The position numbers and the translations under genes were made by a program. DNA of 45,563 nt, taken from IMG/VR virus record IMGVR_UViG_3300037042_004781, positions 1 to 45,563 of that record; one strand, 5' to 3'. Numbering within the stretch: position 1 is the stretch's first letter; each line of letters begins with the position of its first letter. Below the pieces are notes generated by a model, which made no database searches, was not told where the DNA came from, and saw only the letters and a program-made list of their open reading frames with translations. This document shows positions 19,897 to 42,234 of the stretch, piece by piece. This DNA is from a virus.

Positions 19897-20949
19897 ATGA
19901 CCCCCGAAGCCGCAGTCACCCCCGGTGGCGTTCTCCAAGCCCTCGGCCCCGCGATGGCCGCTCTGGCCGCTCGTCAAGGTGGTGGAGGCGGGCTTGAATC
20001 GTTGTCGAAGTACATGCCCTCCGGCGGCTCGACGCTCGCTGCGCTGCAAGGCGCCGAGATAGCACGGGGTCGCCTCACCTTGGAACAGGATGTCGCCCGC
20101 AAGAACGCGTTGGCGGCGGGCATGGTCGCCCCACGGGATGCAACCGAGGAAGACTACGTCGCTCAAGCGAAACTCGAAGCGCACCGGAAAACGTACCTCC
20201 CGCAAATCTATCAGGTCCACGGCTCGGAAGCTGCGCGGGCAAAAGAACGTGAAGCAGGTCTGCGACAGGAATACGCGATGAAGCGGGCAGCCATCGAGAA
20301 GGAACTGGCGCCGCAAGCGGCCAAGAACGCGAAGCTCGCCGACCTGGACGAGCAGTACCGCAAACCCGCGTTCGATGCGAGGCAGCGAACCCTTGCCGCC
20401 GAGAAATCGTTCAACGACAACTTGGCCCGCGTGAATGCGGGGTTGGCGCCGGAGAACACCGCGTATGAGCCCGGCTCGGAAATCGACGACCTCATCAAGA
20501 GCGGCATGGGCGGAGCGGCGAAGGGCACGCCAGCGGCTGCCCCCGGAGCGGCTCCGACGGCCGAGACAGCCGGTGGCCCCTCCAATGTCCTTGGGGCACT
20601 AGCTCTAGCGAACCCGATAACGCTCCCGATAGCCTCCTCCCTGTATGGTATCCGGGCAGCACAAAATCTCCCGGAAGGAACCGTGCCGTCCGCGCTGGAC
20701 GCGATGCTTGCTGCCTCTATGGGCGGAGTGTCTAGTGGTTGGGGGAACAGCCCCTCCTTTCGTCCCTCTGATTGGGTCAATCGCCAGACCAGTCTCGCAC
20801 CGCGCTCCCCGGCAGCCAACGCGTTTTCGCCGGCGGCCCAACAGGCGGCCCTTGACGCGAGGCTCCAGCAGAGGTACGCGCCTCAGAGCGCGACAGCGGC
20901 CGACGCTTTCGTGGGTGGTCCCCTTCAGCCGCCCTACCCTCTCCAATAA
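19897..20949 (+). CDS. Internal virion protein, 350 aa
   Basis: A Gly-rich N-terminus is followed by a long charged coiled-coil-like helix (about residues 60-175, EAHRKTYLPQIYQ and LRQEYAMKRAAIEKELA). A low-complexity Ala/Gly/Pro region and a hydrophobic segment (ALANPITLPIASSLYGI, about 235) come next. The last base of its TAA stop is the first base of the giant gene's ATG. Context makes it a third ejection protein; no catalytic motif seen. Confidence 0.65.
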   Translation: MTPEAAVTPGGVLQALGPAMAALAARQGGGGGLESLSKYMPSGGSTLAALQGAEIARGRLTLEQDVARKNALAAGMVAPRDATEEDYVAQAKLEAHRKTYLPQIYQVHGSEAARAKEREAGLRQEYAMKRAAIEKELAPQAAKNAKLADLDEQYRKPAFDARQRTLAAEKSFNDNLARVNAGLAPENTAYEPGSEIDDLIKSGMGGAAKGTPAAAPGAAPTAETAGGPSNVLGALALANPITLPIASSLYGIRAAQNLPEGTVPSALDAMLAASMGGVSSGWGNSPSFRPSDWVNRQTSLAPRSPAANAFSPAAQQAALDARLQQRYAPQSATAADAFVGGPLQPPYPLQ

Positions 20950-23900
20950 TGCCTCCCCCCGAGACAACTGACCAAGTAGACCCGAACGCCGACTTTTACA
21001 CGGCGGCGATCCGGGCACTTCGGGCTGACGCAGCCGCGAAAGGGGAGAACCCGAACAAGCTGACCTCTGTCGAGCTGATGAAGCGGTTCGGCCAGGCGAT
21101 GGAGCGAAACGGGTTCGGTGGGGCGACCCAGCAGGCGCACTCGCTCGCCTTCCAGCAGCACGCACAGCGGGCGTTGGGCGAACCGGTGTTCAACCCCTTG
21201 GGGTCGGCGTCCGAGCGCAACTACGCAGCGGACCTGTGGCGGGCGGGCGGCGTCGGCCTGGGCGAGGTGGGCGCGGGTCTGACCGGCGATGCGACCATGC
21301 ACCAGGAACTGCGGCAGGGCGCGGAACTGCTCGCGGAAGGGCGGGGCGCCAAGGCACGGTTCGGGCTCGGCGCGGCCGAGCTTGGTGGCGGGCTACTGCC
21401 GGCGGTGGCCGCCGGCGTGCTCACCGGCGGTGCGGCAGCGGGGGTCGGGGCAGCCCCGGCGGCGTCCGCGTTCGCTGGCCTCCTTGGTTCCTCCCTCCCG
21501 ATGAACTACGCGCAGGCGCAGAACAAGTACGCGGACCTGCTTGCGGAGGGCTACTCGCAGAACCAGGCGCAGAACGTCGCCGCCGCAGAGATGGGCGCGA
21601 ATACCCTGCTCGACGTGGCCCTGCCCGGCGCCGGCCGCGTGATGCGTGGCGGACTCGGGAAGTTGCCCGGGCTCGGGGGAGTGCTGTCGACCAACATTGC
21701 CGAGGGGATCACCAAGCACCCCGGGCTGGCGACCATCGGTGAAAACGCGCTCAACGCCATGGGCCGTGTGGGGGCCGAGGGCGCCATCGAGGCCGGTGTG
21801 CTGGGCACCCCCATGCCCGGATTCGGCCAGTACATGGAAGCCGGCGGCATGGGCGCCCTCGGCGGCGGGCTGGCCCTCGCGGGCCATGGGATGGCTCGCG
21901 GGCTCGCCGGCCAGATTGAGGGGTGGCTGAAGACCCGTACGCCCACGGGGGACGTGGTGGCGATGGAGCCCCGCGCACAGCCGCCTATCCAGCCCCCGCC
22001 CGTCCAACCCTTTATTCCCCCGGAGGTGCCCCGTGCCGAAGCTCTACGAAGCGATCCGCGACTCGTACCTGGCGAAGGGCAAGCCGCCCAAGCAGGCCAA
22101 GAAGCTGGCCGCTATGACGTACAACGCCCGCCGGAAGCCCGGCCAGAAGCCAGTCACAGGCAAATCGGAGAAGTAGCCGCCCCGCGCCAGCTTGCGCCCG
22201 ACGCGCAGGCAGAAATCGCCAAGCTGCCGCCCGAGGTGCAGGCGGCCCTGCAACCGGCCATCGCGGAACGCCTCACCATGGCGAGGGCAGATCCAGCGGG
22301 CGACCTCGGCAACGTGATGATGCTGCTGGAATCCAAGGCGGTACGGAAGGCGATTGCGGAGAGTCGGGCGGCGACGAAGCCGGCCGAGCCCGCGCAGTCC
22401 CCGGTCCCCGCCTCTGAGGCGCCGCCTCTGGCCGGCAAGATGGAAGCGCAGGGGGCCAAGCAGGCAGCGGGTTCGGCAGTGACGGAGCCGGCAGCGAAGA
22501 CAGCCCCCGAGGTGGTCAAGACGGAGGTGCCGAAGGCCGAGCCCACCAAACCCGTGGAGCCCCCGACGCCGGTCGAGCGGCGGATGCTTGAAGCTCCTGC
22601 GGCAGCGGAAGTCGCGGCCGAGCCCCCCGCCCTCATCGCCAAGCGCCGGCTCATCGAGCAGGTGGCCGCCGCACGCGGGCAGCCGCTGGCCCTGGCGACC
22701 AAGACGGTCGAGGCCGCCAATGAGCGGGGCATGTTCTCGCCGACGGTCGTCGAGATCGGTGGCAAGAGCGAGCCGGCCGTCATGGCCGCCAAGCCCTTCC
22801 GGGGCGCCGAGACGAGGTACGTCGTCCACGGCGCTGCGGGGGAGACGTTCGCGGTGGTGAAGGACTCCGCCGGCAAGTGGCGCTACCTCGACGGCGAGGG
22901 GCACACGGTCGCCAAGCGCGAGCAGGCGCAGCCCTACCATGACGTGCTCACCACGCAGACCAAGCTGGCCGAACTGGAAGGTCGCGGCGAGCGGCCAGCG
23001 GTCGTCGGCAAGGCGGGCGAAGCCGTAGCCGAAGGACTGCGGACCAAGGAGCGGACGACCGAACTGACGCCCGAGGGCAAGGTGCGCTCGGCCGCGCAAG
23101 TGCGAGCCGAGGAGGCGCAGCGGGCACGCGAGGCCGAGGCGAAGTTGAAGGCGGAGGCGGAGAGCGAACCGCCCCCGGAGCCCGAGGCGAAGGCCCGCAT
23201 TGCTGAGCCGACCCCCACGCCGACCGAACTGCCACTGGACGAATTGAAGGCCCGCGTCCCCGGCGGCTCCGTCACCCGCAACCCCGATGGCTCAATCACG
23301 CTGGTTGGCAAACGCGGTGCCGAGGTGCGGCTGTCGACCCGCGAAGGGCTCAGCGTCGACGCGGCCTCGGCGGTTGCGGAAGTCCGTACCAAGGACGGCA
23401 AGCTCGTCGGCGAGATCGGCTTCAAGGACGGCGAGGCCACGCTGTTGAACACGGACCACGAGATGGTCCACACCATGCGCGACTTGGGCTTGCTCAAGCC
23501 GGGCGAATGGGCGGCGCTCAAGAACGCGCTGGTTACGGACGCCGATGTTGTCCGTACCAAGGCGCTGTACGAGAAGGAAGGGGTGAAACTCACCACCGAG
23601 CAGGCGGCCGAGGAAGTCATCGCGGAGAAGATCGCGCAGCAGCACGCGGTGCTGGTCGCCCACCCATTGTGGCAGAAGATCAAGGACTTTGTCCACGACT
23701 TGGCCGTTGCGCTCGGACTGCGCGAGCCCGCGACTGGCGAGCGGGTGGCCCGCCAGATTGCTCGGGGCGAAGTGTTCGCCCGCGAGCCCCGGCCGGTGCG
23801 CGACTTCGCCGAGCGGTTCGCGATCCGTGAGGTGGCCGACACGCCGGAGACGCTGGTGCGAGTCGCCGAGGACGCCGATACGCCGACCAAGGGCGTGCTC

Positions 23901-26663
23901 AGTAATTTCTCGTCGGCTTCGCGCACGAAGGCGGGGGAGGTCCTGTCATCCGTGCGGACCAAGATGACCCCGCGTGGTTGGGCGGCGGCCACGGGCGACC
24001 GCAACGCGATGAAGGCGGTCGACATTGGTCAAGCCACGAACGACCTGTCCCGCGAGGCGCAGGTGAAGGCCGCGCCCGCTCTCAAGGCCCTGGACCAACT
24101 CAAGAACTTCGACAAGGTCATGGAGTGGCAGATCCAGGCCACGCTGGAAGCCCGCAGCCGGGTGCTCGACAAGGATACCCGGCCGATCACGTTGGACACA
24201 GTCTTCACCGCCGCCGACGGCAAGACCAAGATCAAGCTGGACCCGACTGAGCAGAAGGCGGTGGACGGTTGGCGCGAGGCCAGCAAGCAGCTTGCCCGCT
24301 CGACAGCCGACGCCATCGACGCTCTGCCACCCGAGCATCGCACGCCGGAAATGTCGGAGATCAGCAAGATGATCCGCGAGGACTTGCTGAAGGAGCAAAC
24401 CCCGTACATGCCCATGAGCCGGCAGGGCGGGCACCGGGTTGTGCTCACCTCCGAGGTGGCTCCGAAGGACATGGCTGCGTGGGTTGAGCATCGGCGAAAC
24501 CTAAAGGACCTCACCCCCGCGCAGAAATCGCTGGTCGATCACCTGCTGGTGTCGCTCCGGTCGCAAGCCGCCTCCGACGCCACCACGTCGACCCTGTACC
24601 TCGGGGACGCCGGGGCCTTCGAGAAGTCGAAGCGCGGTGCGCTGGTTCACGACGAGCAAGTGGGCGAAGCGAAGTGGCTCGCGGACTTCACCGAGACGCC
24701 CTTCAACCGGATCCAGCAGCTGGCGCCGGACGCGAAGTTCGACGCCCGGTACGAGGCCATACCCGGAGTGCATACCCTGCTGAAGATCTTCAGCAAGGCA
24801 GGCATCACCGGCCCGGCGGCCGAGGGCATGCTGGACGCCATCATGTTCAGTGGCCGGCGAGTGGCCTACAACGCGCAGTTGCTGGTGCCCGGATTCCGGG
24901 TGGCCGAGGCCAAGCGGGCGATTGCTGGTTATGTCCAGTCGTCGACCACCTACGCCGCGCACCTCCAGCAGATGCCGAAGCTGAACGCGGCCATTGCGGA
25001 AGTCAGCAGCCCAGCATACCGCAAGTACCTGTCCGAGTGGCAGCAGGCGATGTTGGCCCCGTCGCCCGTCGGAGCGCGAGCCCGTACCTGGATCGCCTTG
25101 GCGGCCATGTCGGCGAACCCATCAGGGTACCTCGTGCAGGCCATGCAGACGCAGGTGCAGGGTCCGGCGTTCCTCGCTGCCAACGGAGTCCCCGGAGCCG
25201 CGAAGCTGTTCGCGGAGGGATTCAAGGCCCATGCCGGGGCCTTGTGGTCGATGGTCACGCTCAAGCGCGGCGCGGACTACCTCGGCTCGGCCGTCGACTC
25301 GTACAAGACCAGCGACCCCGCCTTGCACGCCTACCTCGCCGAGCAGGCGGCCACCGGCCGGTACGGCACCGACCTGTCGCGGGACCTGCAATTCAGTTCC
25401 TCCAAGCTGGAACGTGTACTGTCGAACAGCATGGTCTTCACCAGCCGGGCGGAGATTGCCTCCCGTTTGGCAACCGACGTGGCCATGTGGAAGGTGGCGA
25501 AGAACCTGCCGGGGGAGAAGCTGGCCGAGTTGACGACGGTGCTGGAGAAGCACGGGTACGCGACCGATGGCAGCCGGGCCGGGTTCGTCAAGGCGGTCGG
25601 CGAGATGGTGAACCCTCGCGTCGACAAGGGCAACACCCCCTTGTTCGCCTTGCAGAGCGGCACCGGCGCAGCGGCCACCTCGCTGTTCTCGTGGACGCAG
25701 CGGTCGGTCGAGGCGACCATCAACACCATGCGGGTTGCCGGGCTGGACCGCAAGCACGCCTTCCAGGCGTCGGCCGTCGGCCTGGCGCTGGTGGGCATGC
25801 TGGGGCCGCAGGCTATCCCCCTGCTCGGCACCCTCGGCGGTTCGGCGTTCATCAACATGGTGAAGAACTGGGTCACGGACGACCCGGACCCCCGCGACGT
25901 GGCCACCCGCGCCGGCGACCCGGACGAGTGGTTTGCCCGCTGGCTCTCGGCCGGCTCACTAGGGCTGGGGATCGAACAGGCGACCGGCGACACCACCTTG
26001 TCGCGCACCGTCGACTCGTTCATCGAACGGGTGGGCTACACCGCCCTGTTCAAGAACGGCGCGAACCCGTCCGACTGGATGCCGCTCTTGAGCGTCCCCA
26101 TGCAGATGGGTAGCCATGCGGGCCAGGCATGGGCTGATGTGCGGATGGGCGAGTATGGGCAAGCCGGGCTCGACGCCCTCAAAGTGTTCGGCCCCGGTGT
26201 CCGCAACCTCGTCACCGGCGGGCAGATGCTGGCCTCCGGGCAGGGGACGACCGCCGGCGGGGAACCACTCACCGAAGTGAGCGCCCCCGAGGCGGTCGGC
26301 AAGATCGCGGGCTTCCAGCCGGGCAGCATGATCGAAGCCCGCTCGCAACGCGGGTCCATGATCGAGATTCAGCAGGATCGCACGCAGCGCCTGGGCCGGT
26401 ACGCCGAGGCCGCTGCCCGAGCGATCTTGCGCGAGGATGACGACGGATTCGCCACCATCATGGCCCGCCTGGAACGAGACAACGAGCGGTGGTACGCGGT
26501 GGGCGGGGCAAAGATGGGCGCTGGTGTCATCGACAGCACCAACCTCCGGGATGCCATCGAACGCCGCATCCTCAATCGCCTGTACGGCAAAGCGTCATGG
26601 CAAGGGCTCAAGGGGGTGCCGACGCAACTGCGCCCACTATTTATGGAGTACCTTACGGATTGA
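20949..26663 (+). CDS. Giant polyvalent ejection protein with zincin motif, 1904 aa
   Basis: Largest gene and last of the late operon. Residues about 95-330 are Gly/Ala-rich and hydrophobic, suited to membrane passage. About 330-830 is Pro/Glu/Ala-rich linker with helices. At 837-841 is HEMVH (HExxH), followed by TMRDLGLLKPGEW and later an acidic EEVIAEK, the layout of zinc metallopeptidase domains in phage polyvalent proteins. The C-terminal third has NPSGYLVQAMQTQVQGPAF and NTPLFALQSGTGAAATSLFSW, resembling LPD38/PLxRFG-type regions. Likely injected with DNA, processing host or virion proteins. No lytic transglycosylase motif was found. The domain names are by eye. Confidence 0.75.
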   Translation: MPPPETTDQVDPNADFYTAAIRALRADAAAKGENPNKLTSVELMKRFGQAMERNGFGGATQQAHSLAFQQHAQRALGEPVFNPLGSASERNYAADLWRAGGVGLGEVGAGLTGDATMHQELRQGAELLAEGRGAKARFGLGAAELGGGLLPAVAAGVLTGGAAAGVGAAPAASAFAGLLGSSLPMNYAQAQNKYADLLAEGYSQNQAQNVAAAEMGANTLLDVALPGAGRVMRGGLGKLPGLGGVLSTNIAEGITKHPGLATIGENALNAMGRVGAEGAIEAGVLGTPMPGFGQYMEAGGMGALGGGLALAGHGMARGLAGQIEGWLKTRTPTGDVVAMEPRAQPPIQPPPVQPFIPPEVPRAEALRSDPRLVPGEGQAAQAGQEAGRYDVQRPPEARPEASHRQIGEVAAPRQLAPDAQAEIAKLPPEVQAALQPAIAERLTMARADPAGDLGNVMMLLESKAVRKAIAESRAATKPAEPAQSPVPASEAPPLAGKMEAQGAKQAAGSAVTEPAAKTAPEVVKTEVPKAEPTKPVEPPTPVERRMLEAPAAAEVAAEPPALIAKRRLIEQVAAARGQPLALATKTVEAANERGMFSPTVVEIGGKSEPAVMAAKPFRGAETRYVVHGAAGETFAVVKDSAGKWRYLDGEGHTVAKREQAQPYHDVLTTQTKLAELEGRGERPAVVGKAGEAVAEGLRTKERTTELTPEGKVRSAAQVRAEEAQRAREAEAKLKAEAESEPPPEPEAKARIAEPTPTPTELPLDELKARVPGGSVTRNPDGSITLVGKRGAEVRLSTREGLSVDAASAVAEVRTKDGKLVGEIGFKDGEATLLNTDHEMVHTMRDLGLLKPGEWAALKNALVTDADVVRTKALYEKEGVKLTTEQAAEEVIAEKIAQQHAVLVAHPLWQKIKDFVHDLAVALGLREPATGERVARQIARGEVFAREPRPVRDFAERFAIREVADTPETLVRVAEDADTPTKGVLSNFSSASRTKAGEVLSSVRTKMTPRGWAAATGDRNAMKAVDIGQATNDLSREAQVKAAPALKALDQLKNFDKVMEWQIQATLEARSRVLDKDTRPITLDTVFTAADGKTKIKLDPTEQKAVDGWREASKQLARSTADAIDALPPEHRTPEMSEISKMIREDLLKEQTPYMPMSRQGGHRVVLTSEVAPKDMAAWVEHRRNLKDLTPAQKSLVDHLLVSLRSQAASDATTSTLYLGDAGAFEKSKRGALVHDEQVGEAKWLADFTETPFNRIQQLAPDAKFDARYEAIPGVHTLLKIFSKAGITGPAAEGMLDAIMFSGRRVAYNAQLLVPGFRVAEAKRAIAGYVQSSTTYAAHLQQMPKLNAAIAEVSSPAYRKYLSEWQQAMLAPSPVGARARTWIALAAMSANPSGYLVQAMQTQVQGPAFLAANGVPGAAKLFAEGFKAHAGALWSMVTLKRGADYLGSAVDSYKTSDPALHAYLAEQAATGRYGTDLSRDLQFSSSKLERVLSNSMVFTSRAEIASRLATDVAMWKVAKNLPGEKLAELTTVLEKHGYATDGSRAGFVKAVGEMVNPRVDKGNTPLFALQSGTGAAATSLFSWTQRSVEATINTMRVAGLDRKHAFQASAVGLALVGMLGPQAIPLLGTLGGSAFINMVKNWVTDDPDPRDVATRAGDPDEWFARWLSAGSLGLGIEQATGDTTLSRTVDSFIERVGYTALFKNGANPSDWMPLLSVPMQMGSHAGQAWADVRMGEYGQAGLDALKVFGPGVRNLVTGGQMLASGQGTTAGGEPLTEVSAPEAVGKIAGFQPGSMIEARSQRGSMIEIQQDRTQRLGRYAEAAARAILREDDDGFATIMARLERDNERWYAVGGAKMGAGVIDSTNLRDAIERRILNRLYGKASWQGLKGVPTQLRPLFMEYLTD

Positions 26664-26840
26664 ACGGGCTTCGAGCAGCAGGAGCCGAACGTCGTGCATG
26701 GTCTGCTCGGCCCGTATCGCTTCCAGCTGCGTGCGAAGGGCAAGGCACGACGGGCACGGAGCATGGTCCACCGGGAGTTGAGCGGACACGGGCCAGCCGA
26801 CGGTGTTCCCGAGATTCCAGAACGGCCACTTATATTTCAC
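26637..26840 (-). CDS. Small protein with CPSC pair, 67 aa
   Basis: GTG start overlapping the stop of the resolvase gene (GTGA), so probably coupled. A mid-protein CPSC, then a helical end (LRTQLEAIRAEQ, RLLLLEARSIRK), suggest half a zinc knuckle plus a helix. Its last 27 bp run into the 3' end of the convergent giant ejection gene. No separate terminator is seen between the two convergent operons. Confidence 0.45.
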   Translation of the reverse strand: MKYKWPFWNLGNTVGWPVSAQLPVDHAPCPSCLALRTQLEAIRAEQTMHDVRLLLLEARSIRKVLHK

Positions 26841-27286
26841 AGCGAGGCAATGAATAGGTCGAGCGGAACCCAATCGGTCGGCATGCGGTCATAGAACCAG
26901 AGCATGGCCTCGCACTCGCGCAGGTCTTTCTGCTTCTGCTTGCAGCCGGCCAGCATGTGCCGCGTGGTCAGGGAATGCCCGTGCGTCCACTTGGAGGAGG
27001 GGGCGACCAACAGTTGAGTGACCGAGTTGTGCGCGTGGAAGTAGGCGGCCAACCGGGTAGCCTGGTAGACATTGAAGATCGTCCACCGTCGTTTGTTGTG
27101 CGCTGCCCCCGGGTTATCGGTGTAGTCCGCTGCGGAGGCTATCTCGAACAGCACCGTGCCGTATTCCACCCGGAGAGTATCCAGGAAATTGTCGGTGAGT
27201 TCCGGCGCGGCTTTGAGCAAAACACGGTCCGTGTCGTCCACCGCGTACATTTTTCTCAGATCGCAGTCGATGGCTACGGTGCTCAT
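26837..27286 (-). CDS. RuvC-like Holliday junction resolvase (RNase H fold), 149 aa
   Basis: Likely resolves branched replication or recombination intermediates before packaging. The start is a first strand with acidic residues, MSTVAIDCDL (Asp7, Asp9). An acidic strand follows (GTVLFEIASAADY), a conserved-type central region (TTRHMLAGCKQKQKD), and a late acidic helix (RECEAMLWFYDRM). This is the usual spread of RuvC/RNase H-type carboxylates. The size fits. A GAAAG ribosome site precedes the ATG. I call it from fold signature, not from a strict motif. Confidence 0.6.
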   Translation of the reverse strand: MSTVAIDCDLRKMYAVDDTDRVLLKAAPELTDNFLDTLRVEYGTVLFEIASAADYTDNPGAAHNKRRWTIFNVYQATRLAAYFHAHNSVTQLLVAPSSKWTHGHSLTTRHMLAGCKQKQKDLRECEAMLWFYDRMPTDWVPLDLFIASL

Positions 27287-27650
27287 GGGCTTTTCTTTCT
27301 TTTATGCGTTGGAATCGAAGATCGCGGGCAACCCGAGCCTCGCCGGGCGTGCGGTCCAGCCAGAGATCACAGCACACTTTCGTGCGCTCGGATCGGAGCG
27401 GCGGCAGTTCTCGCGGTATGACGATGCGGTGGGCTACGCGCACCCTTCGCGTCACTTGGGAGCGGAGCAGCACGTGGGCGACGTAGTACCCTCCCCACTT
27501 GTCCGGCATAACGTCGGAGTCGGTGCCTGGGTACAGCCGATCCCGGCGCCGCTGCCAGGCAAACCACTTGTCCCACCGATGCATGTCGCGGTCATCCGTG
27601 GTGTCGGGCTTTGGCCCCGCAAGCGTGAGGTAGTCGAGCGAGCGGTTCAC
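27114..27650 (-). CDS. Hypothetical protein, up to 178 aa; unusual 173-bp overlap with the resolvase gene
   Basis: ATG overlaps the stop of the ribbon-helix-helix gene (ATGA at 27650-27647). Residues 1-95 are basic and aromatic (MHRWDKWFAWQRRRDRLYPG, WGGYYVAHVLLRSQ). As read, it then runs 173 bp into the resolvase gene in another frame. A TAA in the +1 frame (27304-27302), 15 bases before the resolvase ATG, would be a natural end. The distance from this ATG to that stop is 116 codons plus one base, so a single extra base could explain the overlap. Function unknown. Confidence 0.5.
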   Translation of the reverse strand: MNRSLDYLTLAGPKPDTTDDRDMHRWDKWFAWQRRRDRLYPGTDSDVMPDKWGGYYVAHVLLRSQVTRRVRVAHRIVIPRELPPLRSERTKVCCDLWLDRTPGEARVARDLRFQRIKERKAHEHRSHRLRSEKNVRGGRHGPCFAQSRAGTHRQFPGYSPGGIRHGAVRDSLRSGLHR

Positions 27651-27880
27651 GGCTTGATCGTCTCGTCGTCAGGGGTCGCGGCCGGGGGCGGGGTGGCCAC
27701 GAGCACAGTACCCGCGAACGTGCCGATGACCGGCGCGAGGCCCGGCACTACCAACCCGTTCGCGTACGCCCGCACCAGCCTTCGCAGCAGTTCACTGCGC
27801 TTGACGCCGGTGTCGTGCTCCATCTGACGGATCACGCGGAGGGTTTCGTCATCGAACCAGACGGAAGTGGCGCGGCTCAT
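27647..27880 (-). CDS. Ribbon-helix-helix (Arc/CopG-like) protein, 77 aa
   Basis: Start at ATG 27880 with a perfect AAGGAG; further upstream in-frame ATG was not used. The first 40 residues have the RHH order: a short strand (TSVWFDDETLRVI), a helix (RQMEHDTGV), and a second helix starting KRSELLRRLVRAY. RHH proteins bind DNA as dimers through the strand. The C-terminal half is hydrophobic and Pro/Thr-rich (GLAPVIGTFAGTVLVATP), unusual for a plain repressor and possibly a membrane or partner-binding tail. Possible regulator of the middle genes or a host-directed protein. Confidence 0.7.
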   Translation of the reverse strand: MSRATSVWFDDETLRVIRQMEHDTGVKRSELLRRLVRAYANGLVVPGLAPVIGTFAGTVLVATPPPAATPDDETIKP

Positions 27881-27905: not shown

Positions 27906-28304
27906 TCAGACCTGCGTCGTTCCCTCGACGCCGCGCCGCATACGGGCAAGAGTCCGCTGTTGCAGCCAGTGCAGGGCTTCTTCGACCTTGGTGAGCGCGA
28001 TGGTGTTCTCCCGGCATGCGTAGGGGCCAGCCTGGAACGACCGAAGGCGGTCCGCGACGATGGCCAACAGCACTTCCTGCGTGATGCCGTTGACGCCCTT
28101 CTCGTTGATCGGGCCGTTCTGGAACAGTATGGTCGAGCCTATGATCGCGTGCTGCCCGGCGTGGGGATCGCTTGCGTTGGTAGTGGAATCGAACCCGTCG
28201 ACGATATAGCGGTGATTAGCCCCGCCTGCGCCGGGTTCATCGGCGGTCCAGACACGGAGAGAGTCGTTGCAGTGGTCGATGATGTGGTCGGTGACGTAGC
28301 GCAT
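27906..28304 (-). CDS. Acb2/Tad1-type hairpin protein, 132 aa (anti-CBASS or anti-Thoeris sponge)
   Basis: Residues 61-132 have the hallmark series of the Acb2/Tad1 hairpin family: FQNGPINEKGVNG, then ITQEVLLAIVADRLRSFQ, CREN, ALTKVEEALHWLQQRT and the ending RGVEGT. Family members form small oligomers that trap immune signalling nucleotides (cyclic di- and trinucleotides, or gcADPR), silencing CBASS or Thoeris defence. The first 60 residues (NHRYIVDGF and a Gly/Ala-rich loop) precede the hairpin, as in many homologues. ATG 28304 has AAGGGA upstream; an ATG at 28325 would add 7 residues. Which ligand it binds cannot be read from sequence. Confidence 0.85.
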   Translation of the reverse strand: MRYVTDHIIDHCNDSLRVWTADEPGAGGANHRYIVDGFDSTTNASDPHAGQHAIIGSTILFQNGPINEKGVNGITQEVLLAIVADRLRSFQAGPYACRENTIALTKVEEALHWLQQRTLARMRRGVEGTTQV

Positions 28305-28327: not shown

Positions 28328-29134
28328 CTAGAACTTGGTGATCGCAGGCATTTTGACAGCGGTGCGGCGCTCATCCTTGAGCATGAGCCCCGGCGCCGGC
28401 AGGAACACGTCCTTGCACCGGGCGCGGTGCGGGCAGAACTCGGACGAGCAGTGAGCGCCGATGACGGGATGCGCCGCCTTCAACTTGGCCGGGTCGTTGA
28501 CGGCGGCGATCACGCCCTTGACATGGCCGAGCAATTCGCGCACGCCGGGGCTGGTGAAGTCGAACGGGCAGAGCAGCGCCCACTTGGCCGCCAGCGAGTC
28601 GACGTAGAGCACGTAGCCTTTGGTGGCCCTCTCGCCCGACAGGATGTAGTACGCCAGCAACTGGATCAGGTGGCCGGGCTTGATGCGGTTGTGGTCGGGC
28701 ACCCGCTGCGTGGTCTTGAGGTCAATGATCCGGTCATAGTCGGGGGTGATGAAGTCGATGTGGCCGGTGAGTTGGCCGGTGGACCATTTGGTTTCCGCCT
28801 GCCACTTGAGCAGGGGGTCAATCTCGCGGATCGACTTGGCGGCGAGGTCGGCAACGGCGTCGGCGATGGCCATCTGGATGTTGCGCTCACCCCCGAACAT
28901 CGCGGCGGCGGTCGTGTACTCCTCGTCTGTCGGGGGCTCTGCGCCGGCAGGAAACGCGCATTCCAGTGACTGCTGCGTCAACCAATGGCACACGGTCCCA
29001 TGCTCCATGTAGCCCTTGGATTCCTCGGGTTCTGGCTTGTCGAGAGCGCCGACGGCAATGAGCCGATCCAGCGCCGCCCGGTACAGGCAGAGGTAGTAGG
29101 CCCCGAGCGAGGATGAGCGGGGGACCCAGGTCAC
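28328..29134 (-). CDS. Cas4/RecB-like PD-(D/E)XK nuclease with Fe-S cysteines, 268 aa
   Basis: Nuclease core: a His/Glu-containing helix (KGYMEHGTVCHWL), then GHIDFITPDYDRIIDLKTT, which gives D...DLK (PD-D/EXK), and the Q-motif helix IQLLAYYILSG. Four cysteines are placed as in Cas4/AddB Fe-S nucleases: Cys16 (YYLCLYRAA) and the C-terminal set Cys229, Cys234 and Cys240 (HCSSEFCPHRARC). Such phage enzymes act as DNA exonucleases in recombination, replication or host DNA breakdown. Starts with ATGA coupling to the upstream HTH gene. The 24-bp gap to the anti-defence gene puts both on one transcript. Confidence 0.85.
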   Translation of the reverse strand: MTWVPRSSSLGAYYLCLYRAALDRLIAVGALDKPEPEESKGYMEHGTVCHWLTQQSLECAFPAGAEPPTDEEYTTAAAMFGGERNIQMAIADAVADLAAKSIREIDPLLKWQAETKWSTGQLTGHIDFITPDYDRIIDLKTTQRVPDHNRIKPGHLIQLLAYYILSGERATKGYVLYVDSLAAKWALLCPFDFTSPGVRELLGHVKGVIAAVNDPAKLKAAHPVIGAHCSSEFCPHRARCKDVFLPAPGLMLKDERRTAVKMPAITKF

Positions 29135-41413: not shown

Positions 41414-42010
41414 TCATACCTCGTGTGCGACGGCTTCGTCGCGGGTGACGTAGAAGTGGATACCGGGGGCGCATTCTTTTGTCCAGTCGGGATCGAATCC
41501 GCTGGGGCGCACCGTTTTACCCGCCCGGTACGTGGTCTTCCCGTCGTGTGCGGAAGTGGCTTCCTTATAGGTCGTACTCCCGTCCAGGGAGGTGACGGAC
41601 ACCACCGTCGCGTATTCTGCGCGGCATTTGCGACCGAAGGCATGCGAGCGTTTCGCCTTCGCTGGTATTTGCATCTCCACGATGCGACCGGACAGGCACC
41701 GCTTGTAGCCGATGATTGCACCCTCAGGCAGGATCCGGGTGCGTGCAATGGCGAGTTCGGCACCTATCGCGCTCCTGAGGTCCGCGCCGCTGAGGTCCGC
41801 GCCGCGGAGGTTCGCGCCGCTGAGGTTCGCGCCGCTGAGGTCCGCGCCGCGGAGGTTCGCGCCGCTGAGGTTCGCGCTCCTGAGGTCCGCGCCGCTGAGG
41901 TTCGCGCCGCTGAGGTTCGCGCTCCTGAGGTTCGCACGTTTCCCCGCTGGGTCGTTCCGCCACCAGGCGGCATGCTTGGATAGGATGGTGGGTAGGTCAA
42001 TGGGGGTCAT
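41414..42010 (-). CDS. Pentapeptide-repeat protein with DUF5758-like C-terminus, 198 aa
   Basis: Start ATG 42010, overlapping the upstream stop (ATGA). Residues about 25-80 are eleven A(N/D)LxG/S pentapeptides ([15 protein letters not shown]), a right-handed quadrilateral helix. The C-terminal half ([45 protein letters not shown]) looks like the domain often joined to pentapeptides in phages. Longer relatives mimic DNA and block gyrase; eleven units is short for that. The repeats are also near-perfect at DNA level, so unit number may vary. Confidence 0.85.
41774..41938. repeat. Eleven tandem 15-bp units encoding the pentapeptides
   Basis: Consecutive units of the form CTGAGGTTCGCGCCG, differing mainly at two or three positions, in frame with the pentapeptide gene. 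High identity between units means slippage or recombination can add or remove pentapeptides. Confidence 0.85.
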
Positions 42011-42234
42011 ACTTCCTCCAGTATTTCGTTCAGGTAGTCTTGCGCCTCTGCCGCCAGGTGTCGCGCCGCGAGCGAATCCACTAGATCGCATTCGGCGATG
42101 ATGGATTCCAGGCGGGAAATCTTTTGCTCGCGGGGGCCATCCAGCGCATAATACGCACTTTCTGGCGTGAGGCCCTCGGGTAGGAGGCGGGGATCGTCGG
42201 GTCGGTGATGTGGCATGTAGTCGGCGATGGGCAT
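42007..42234 (-). CDS. Hypothetical early protein, 75 aa
   Basis: AAGGAA ribosome site; ATGA overlap with the next gene. Begins [15 protein letters not shown] and ends in a helix ([20 protein letters not shown]). No family recognised. Confidence 0.6.

Follow-up and report, generated by a model that had tools for sequence, protein, structure and literature searches.

A minus-strand open reading frame of a virus, encoded within a 45.6 kb stretch of DNA that makes up the entire virus record and was analysed as a whole (hereafter called the window), raises the question of what kind of sponge for immune signalling nucleotides it might specify. An initial annotation had assigned its product to the Acb2/Tad1 type, had singled out its N-terminal part as unusual, and had placed the gene in a putative anti-defence cluster. 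We asked which of the two families the protein belongs to, which signals it might bind, and whether its surroundings are those of a defence-related locus.

The tad1 gene

We confirmed that the open reading frame, which we call tad1 (Table 1), is a genuine gene. An SD-like AAAGGG motif is found directly 5' of the ATG start codon, and the same Met-Arg start is shared by relatives up to 72% identical. In codon comparisons with six relatives, the differences are mostly at third codon positions (for instance 70 of 118 with the relative from locus L046 and 68 of 119 with that from L064), and we therefore consider tad1 to be protein-coding and under purifying selection. Its G+C content at third codon positions is 0.80, and those of its neighbours range from 0.80 to 0.88. 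The motifs on which the initial annotation was based, namely FQNGPI, GVNGITQEVLLAIVADRL, ALTKVEEALHWLQQRT and RGVEGT, are all present in the translation of the minus strand from 28304 to 27906.

Table 1. Features of the tad1 region, with their positions in the window
Feature	Position	Strand	Remarks
Tad1 homologue (tad1)	27906..28304	-	132 aa; ATG at 28304, TGA at 27906
N-terminal beta domain, residues 1-61	28122..28304	-	matches the Tad1 N-terminal sheet
Helical hairpin, residues 76-123	27936..28079	-	carries F90, N100, R117 and R121
PD-(D/E)XK nuclease	28328..29134	-	immediately upstream of tad1, same direction; kept in one related phage without tad1
Small ribbon-helix-helix protein	27647..27880	-	immediately downstream of tad1; not recurrent beside other Tad1 genes
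orfA	26837-27286	-	149 aa; 52% conserved in L074

Assignment to the Tad1 family

A phmmer search against all PDB chains, taken to E=10, matched seven distinct sequences, all of them Tad1. They include CmTad1 (8kbb, E=1e-20), CbTad1 (E=4e-19) in several constructs and gp184 of phage phiKZ. Most of these matches are aligned from residue 23 to residues 129-130, and since the alignments with CbTad1 and gp184 begin at residue 23, the N-terminal half of the protein is included in the homology. With a profile built from 34 homologues, CbTad1 was matched at an E value of 4e-32. No Acb2 chain was found among the PDB sequence matches up to E=10, either with phmmer or with the family profile.

The Pfam signature for the Acb2/Tad1 hairpin, PF24729, whose use had been proposed as a check of the assignment, is a 58-position model that covers the hairpin only. 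It did match the protein (E 6e-4), but with a score of 20.4 bits that falls under the curated cut-off of 27, so that on its own this check would have succeeded only in part. Among the close homologues, 24 of 34 are matched at E<=0.01. We attribute the sub-cut-off score to a model that detects this Tad1 branch poorly; membership of Tad1 is not defined by passing PF24729. As the curated cut-off misses this protein, a Pfam scan run at its own cut-off would undercount such sponges.

The AlphaFold2 model of the monomer (pLDDT 91) has four strands (residues 3-4, 17-20, 32-36 and 56-61) followed by two long helices (residues 76-92 and 98-123). The same architecture has been described for the Tad1 protomer, in which an N-terminal antiparallel sheet, beta1-beta4, precedes two long helices, whereas the Acb2 protomer has three helices, two of them long and one short (PMC12043709). 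The four-stranded N-terminal domain of the model thus departs from the minimal Acb2 protomer, which has no beta sheet. This domain harbours a conserved loop, DEPGAGGANHxY, and the C-terminal tail of the protein is RRGVEGT. A Foldseek search against the PDB returned 20 matches at E<=0.001, all CbTad1 or CmTad1 (TM 0.64-0.80, best E 1e-9), including CbTad1 with gcADPR and cA3 (8kbf) and CmTad1 with cAAA or cAAG (8kbc, 8kbd); the first match after these has E=0.5. The fold match to Tad1 spans the whole length of the protein.

Because the PDB sequence matches, the family profile and the predicted fold all point to Tad1, far more strongly than chance would allow, we conclude that the protein belongs to Tad1 (Thoeris anti-defence 1), of which it is a full-length homologue, and not to Acb2. 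The initial assignment to the Acb2/Tad1 type was therefore right, and it can be sharpened to Tad1. In contrast, the view of the N-terminal 60 residues as a departure from the minimal form did not hold, as sequence alignment, profile and fold identify them as Tad1's own beta domain. Since they form a regular Tad1 domain, their presence gives no grounds for expecting a new range of ligands. That the protein might instead be a minimal Acb2-type sponge to which an unrelated N-terminal part with a new function has been added, as had been suggested, is hardly credible: Acb2 has the hairpin family PF24729 in common with it, but Acb2 lacks the beta domain, with which the N-terminal half of the protein aligns and as which it folds, no Acb2 chain gave a significant sequence or fold match, and the PDB sequence search, the family profile and Foldseek contradict an Acb2 with a new N-terminal domain.

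Among the characterized homologues, CbTad1 from a Clostridium botulinum prophage (PDB 7uav, 7uaw, 8smd and 8kbe-8kbh) is of the same length class and has the same beta-domain-plus-hairpin fold, with TM values of 0.68-0.80 and 36-40% identity over the structural alignment. The two sequences are about 48% identical over 101 aligned residues; CbTad1 has SS before REN and a tail ending in NVLGT, whereas the protein described here has AC and GVEGT at these places. CmTad1 (PDB 8kbb, 8kbc and 8kbd), which was solved with cAAA and cAAG bound, is likewise 132 residues long with the same fold, and it is the best single sequence match, although this match covers only residues 59-132 and the beta domain is aligned by profile or structure only. 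The jumbo-phage protein gp184 (PDB 8y6v) is homologous across the Tad1 region, from residue 23 to residue 129, but it is 230 residues long and harbours an extra N-terminal part. Homologues approximately 50% identical over 99% of the protein are encoded by Agrobacterium phages OLIVR5 and OLIVR6 and Rhizobium phages IG49, IC12 and LG08, which are phages of about 150 kb; these homologues are annotated as hypothetical proteins or 'ABC transporter ATPase'.

Predicted ligand-binding residues and proposed mode of action

Residues D22, A29, H31, Y33, Q62, G64, G73, D85, R86, L87, F90, Q91, G93, N100, L104, R117, R121 and G125 are invariant in the 34 homologues. In CbTad1, the gcADPR pocket is presumably lined by F82 and N92, with R109 and R113 holding the cyclic trinucleotides. 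In the phmmer alignment, these four residues align exactly with F90, N100, R117 and R121. As the presumed site positions are all conserved, both binding modes are predicted to be kept. The pockets and ligands of Tad1 have been described (PMC12043709), and in that work Acb2, like Tad1, binds cyclic trinucleotides at the trimer interface.

Between its third and fourth predicted strands (about residues 37-56), the protein has a longer stretch than CbTad1 does, and no other part of the family is as variable. Together with the reported variation of Tad1 homologues in their range of cyclic dinucleotides (PMC12043709), this makes it conceivable, if doubtful, that the protein has a narrowed or shifted, host-specialised ligand range, for example restricted to cyclic trinucleotides or with a preferred gcADPR isomer. 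However, close relatives differ freely in how long this stretch is. The protein also retains all the presumed ligand-site residues, along with the loops that are invariant in the family. It is considerably less probable that the whole branch of Tad1 proteins of proteobacterial phages, with its longer and variable strand 3-4 stretch, has evolved a signal specificity unseen so far in the family.

On the basis of the gene and the purifying selection acting on it, its assignment to the family, the fold predicted for the protomer and the conserved ligand-site positions, and by analogy with the characterized proteins, we estimate at about 0.9 the probability that the protein is a Tad1-type sponge, encoded in a replication operon, that sequesters the signals of Thoeris and/or CBASS. 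As in CbTad1 and CmTad1, the 132-residue protomers would interlock into dimers and these would assemble into hexamers. Cyclic trinucleotides such as cA3 or cAAG would bind at two trimer interfaces through paired R117 and R121 residues, and gcADPR and cyclic dinucleotides would be bound as well. The sponge would be produced together with the early replication genes, and the Thoeris or CBASS signals would be sequestered rather than degraded, such that the effectors would stay off. A weak CD-NTase (SMODS) match was found in one of five genomes with related prophages, which is too small a sample to draw on.

Genomic context

The tad1 gene is part of a minus-strand run with genes for a DNA polymerase, a helicase, a dATP/dGTP diphosphohydrolase and a PD-(D/E)XK nuclease. 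On its upstream side, 23 bases separate it from the nuclease gene, and on its downstream side 25 bases from that of the ribbon-helix-helix protein. The nuclease has a weak Cas4-like match, ordinary for that fold, and a pattern search found no relatives of it.

The genes at 26.6-28.3 kb had been suggested to form an anti-defence cluster, and we compared the neighbourhoods of 72 Tad1-carrying loci. In tblastn searches, none of the neighbouring genes of the window was found beside Tad1 in these loci, some of which have short flanks so that a rare association could escape, except for a weak XRE match in L008 and L066, which look like the same phage. The flanks of the 72 loci revealed no widely recurrent ORF family: the two largest clusters, from 45 and 19 loci, seem to be artefacts, antisense ORFs that overlap tad1 itself, and the next ones extend to only 8 loci. 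A Pfam scan of 109 neighbouring ORFs showed no family in more than two of them, and none of the neighbours was named as a defence or anti-defence gene by PADLOC or NCBIfam. The proposed cluster is thus unsupported, because the neighbours do not recur beside Tad1; moreover, orfA accompanies replication genes in a relative devoid of tad1.

This relative, the one related phage found, is a 51.7 kb record (L074 and L075, on the same contig) with polymerase, helicase, orfC, nuclease and orfA genes, in which Tad1 was not found. Its nuclease-to-orfA slot (L074:2671-5850) contains other small genes, which by eye include those of an HNH nuclease and a metallophosphoesterase-like protein. Since the related phage keeps the flanking genes but lacks tad1, the latter apparently occupies a variable slot, which may be a hotspot for accessory genes. 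No phage match was found for the major capsid-like protein of the window.

The orfA product starts with AIDCD, has an acidic strand with LFEIAS and ends with KQKDLRECEAM, motifs that suggest an RNase H-like/RuvC-type resolvase; its fold model is poor (pLDDT 51). A small ORF that follows the ribbon-helix-helix gene (27114-27650, minus strand) shares about 170 bases with the beginning of orfA, so that its end may be misplaced or a sequencing frameshift may be present. Elsewhere in the window, a pentapeptide-repeat protein fused to DUF5758 is encoded on the minus strand at 41414-42091 (Pfam E 7e-28 and 8e-30). A 1904-residue protein without Pfam match is encoded on the plus strand at 20949-26663, and a comparable 1534-residue protein is found in the same neighbourhood of L074 (6435-11039). 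The 1904-residue protein is possibly an internal virion or ejection protein.

Distribution of the Tad1 branch

We found relatives of the protein, 42-73% identical to it, on 62 viral contigs and in ten bacterial assemblies, including those of Sphingomonas tagetis, Zavarzinia aquatilis, Noviherbaspirillum sp. and Piscinibacter defluvii, where the genes probably sit in prophages. Among phage records, 121 have a match. The best matches are from Rhizobium and Agrobacterium phages (~50%), followed by a Burkholderia phage, Bacillus phages and phiKZ-like Pseudomonas phages, and the top-scoring homologues among the matches listed are annotated as hypothetical or 'ABC transporter ATPase'. This analysis reveals a large branch of full-length Tad1 genes. 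The protein is one more well-supported Tad1, from a phage for which the searched collections contain hardly any relatives, and a clear addition to the known family; it does not appear to represent a new type of sponge.

The phiKZ Tad1 has been described as injected (PMC13282480), and a packaged sponge is therefore worth considering in loci where tad1 adjoins terminase or portal genes. For the protein described here, its homology to gp184 and the proximity of tad1 to such genes in several distant loci could point to a head-carried and injected sponge that acts before phage gene expression, but we regard this as very unlikely, as the gene sits in a minus-strand replication operon, away from the head genes, and its product has no counterpart to the N-terminal part of gp184, roughly 100 residues long. 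The distant phages in which tad1 is directly beside terminase or portal genes are represented by L020:437-6967, L022:1309-3948, L051:3440-5321, L052:2982-5303 and L036:3133-5238. In L020 and L022, tad1 is located less than 20 bases from the end of a portal-like gene.
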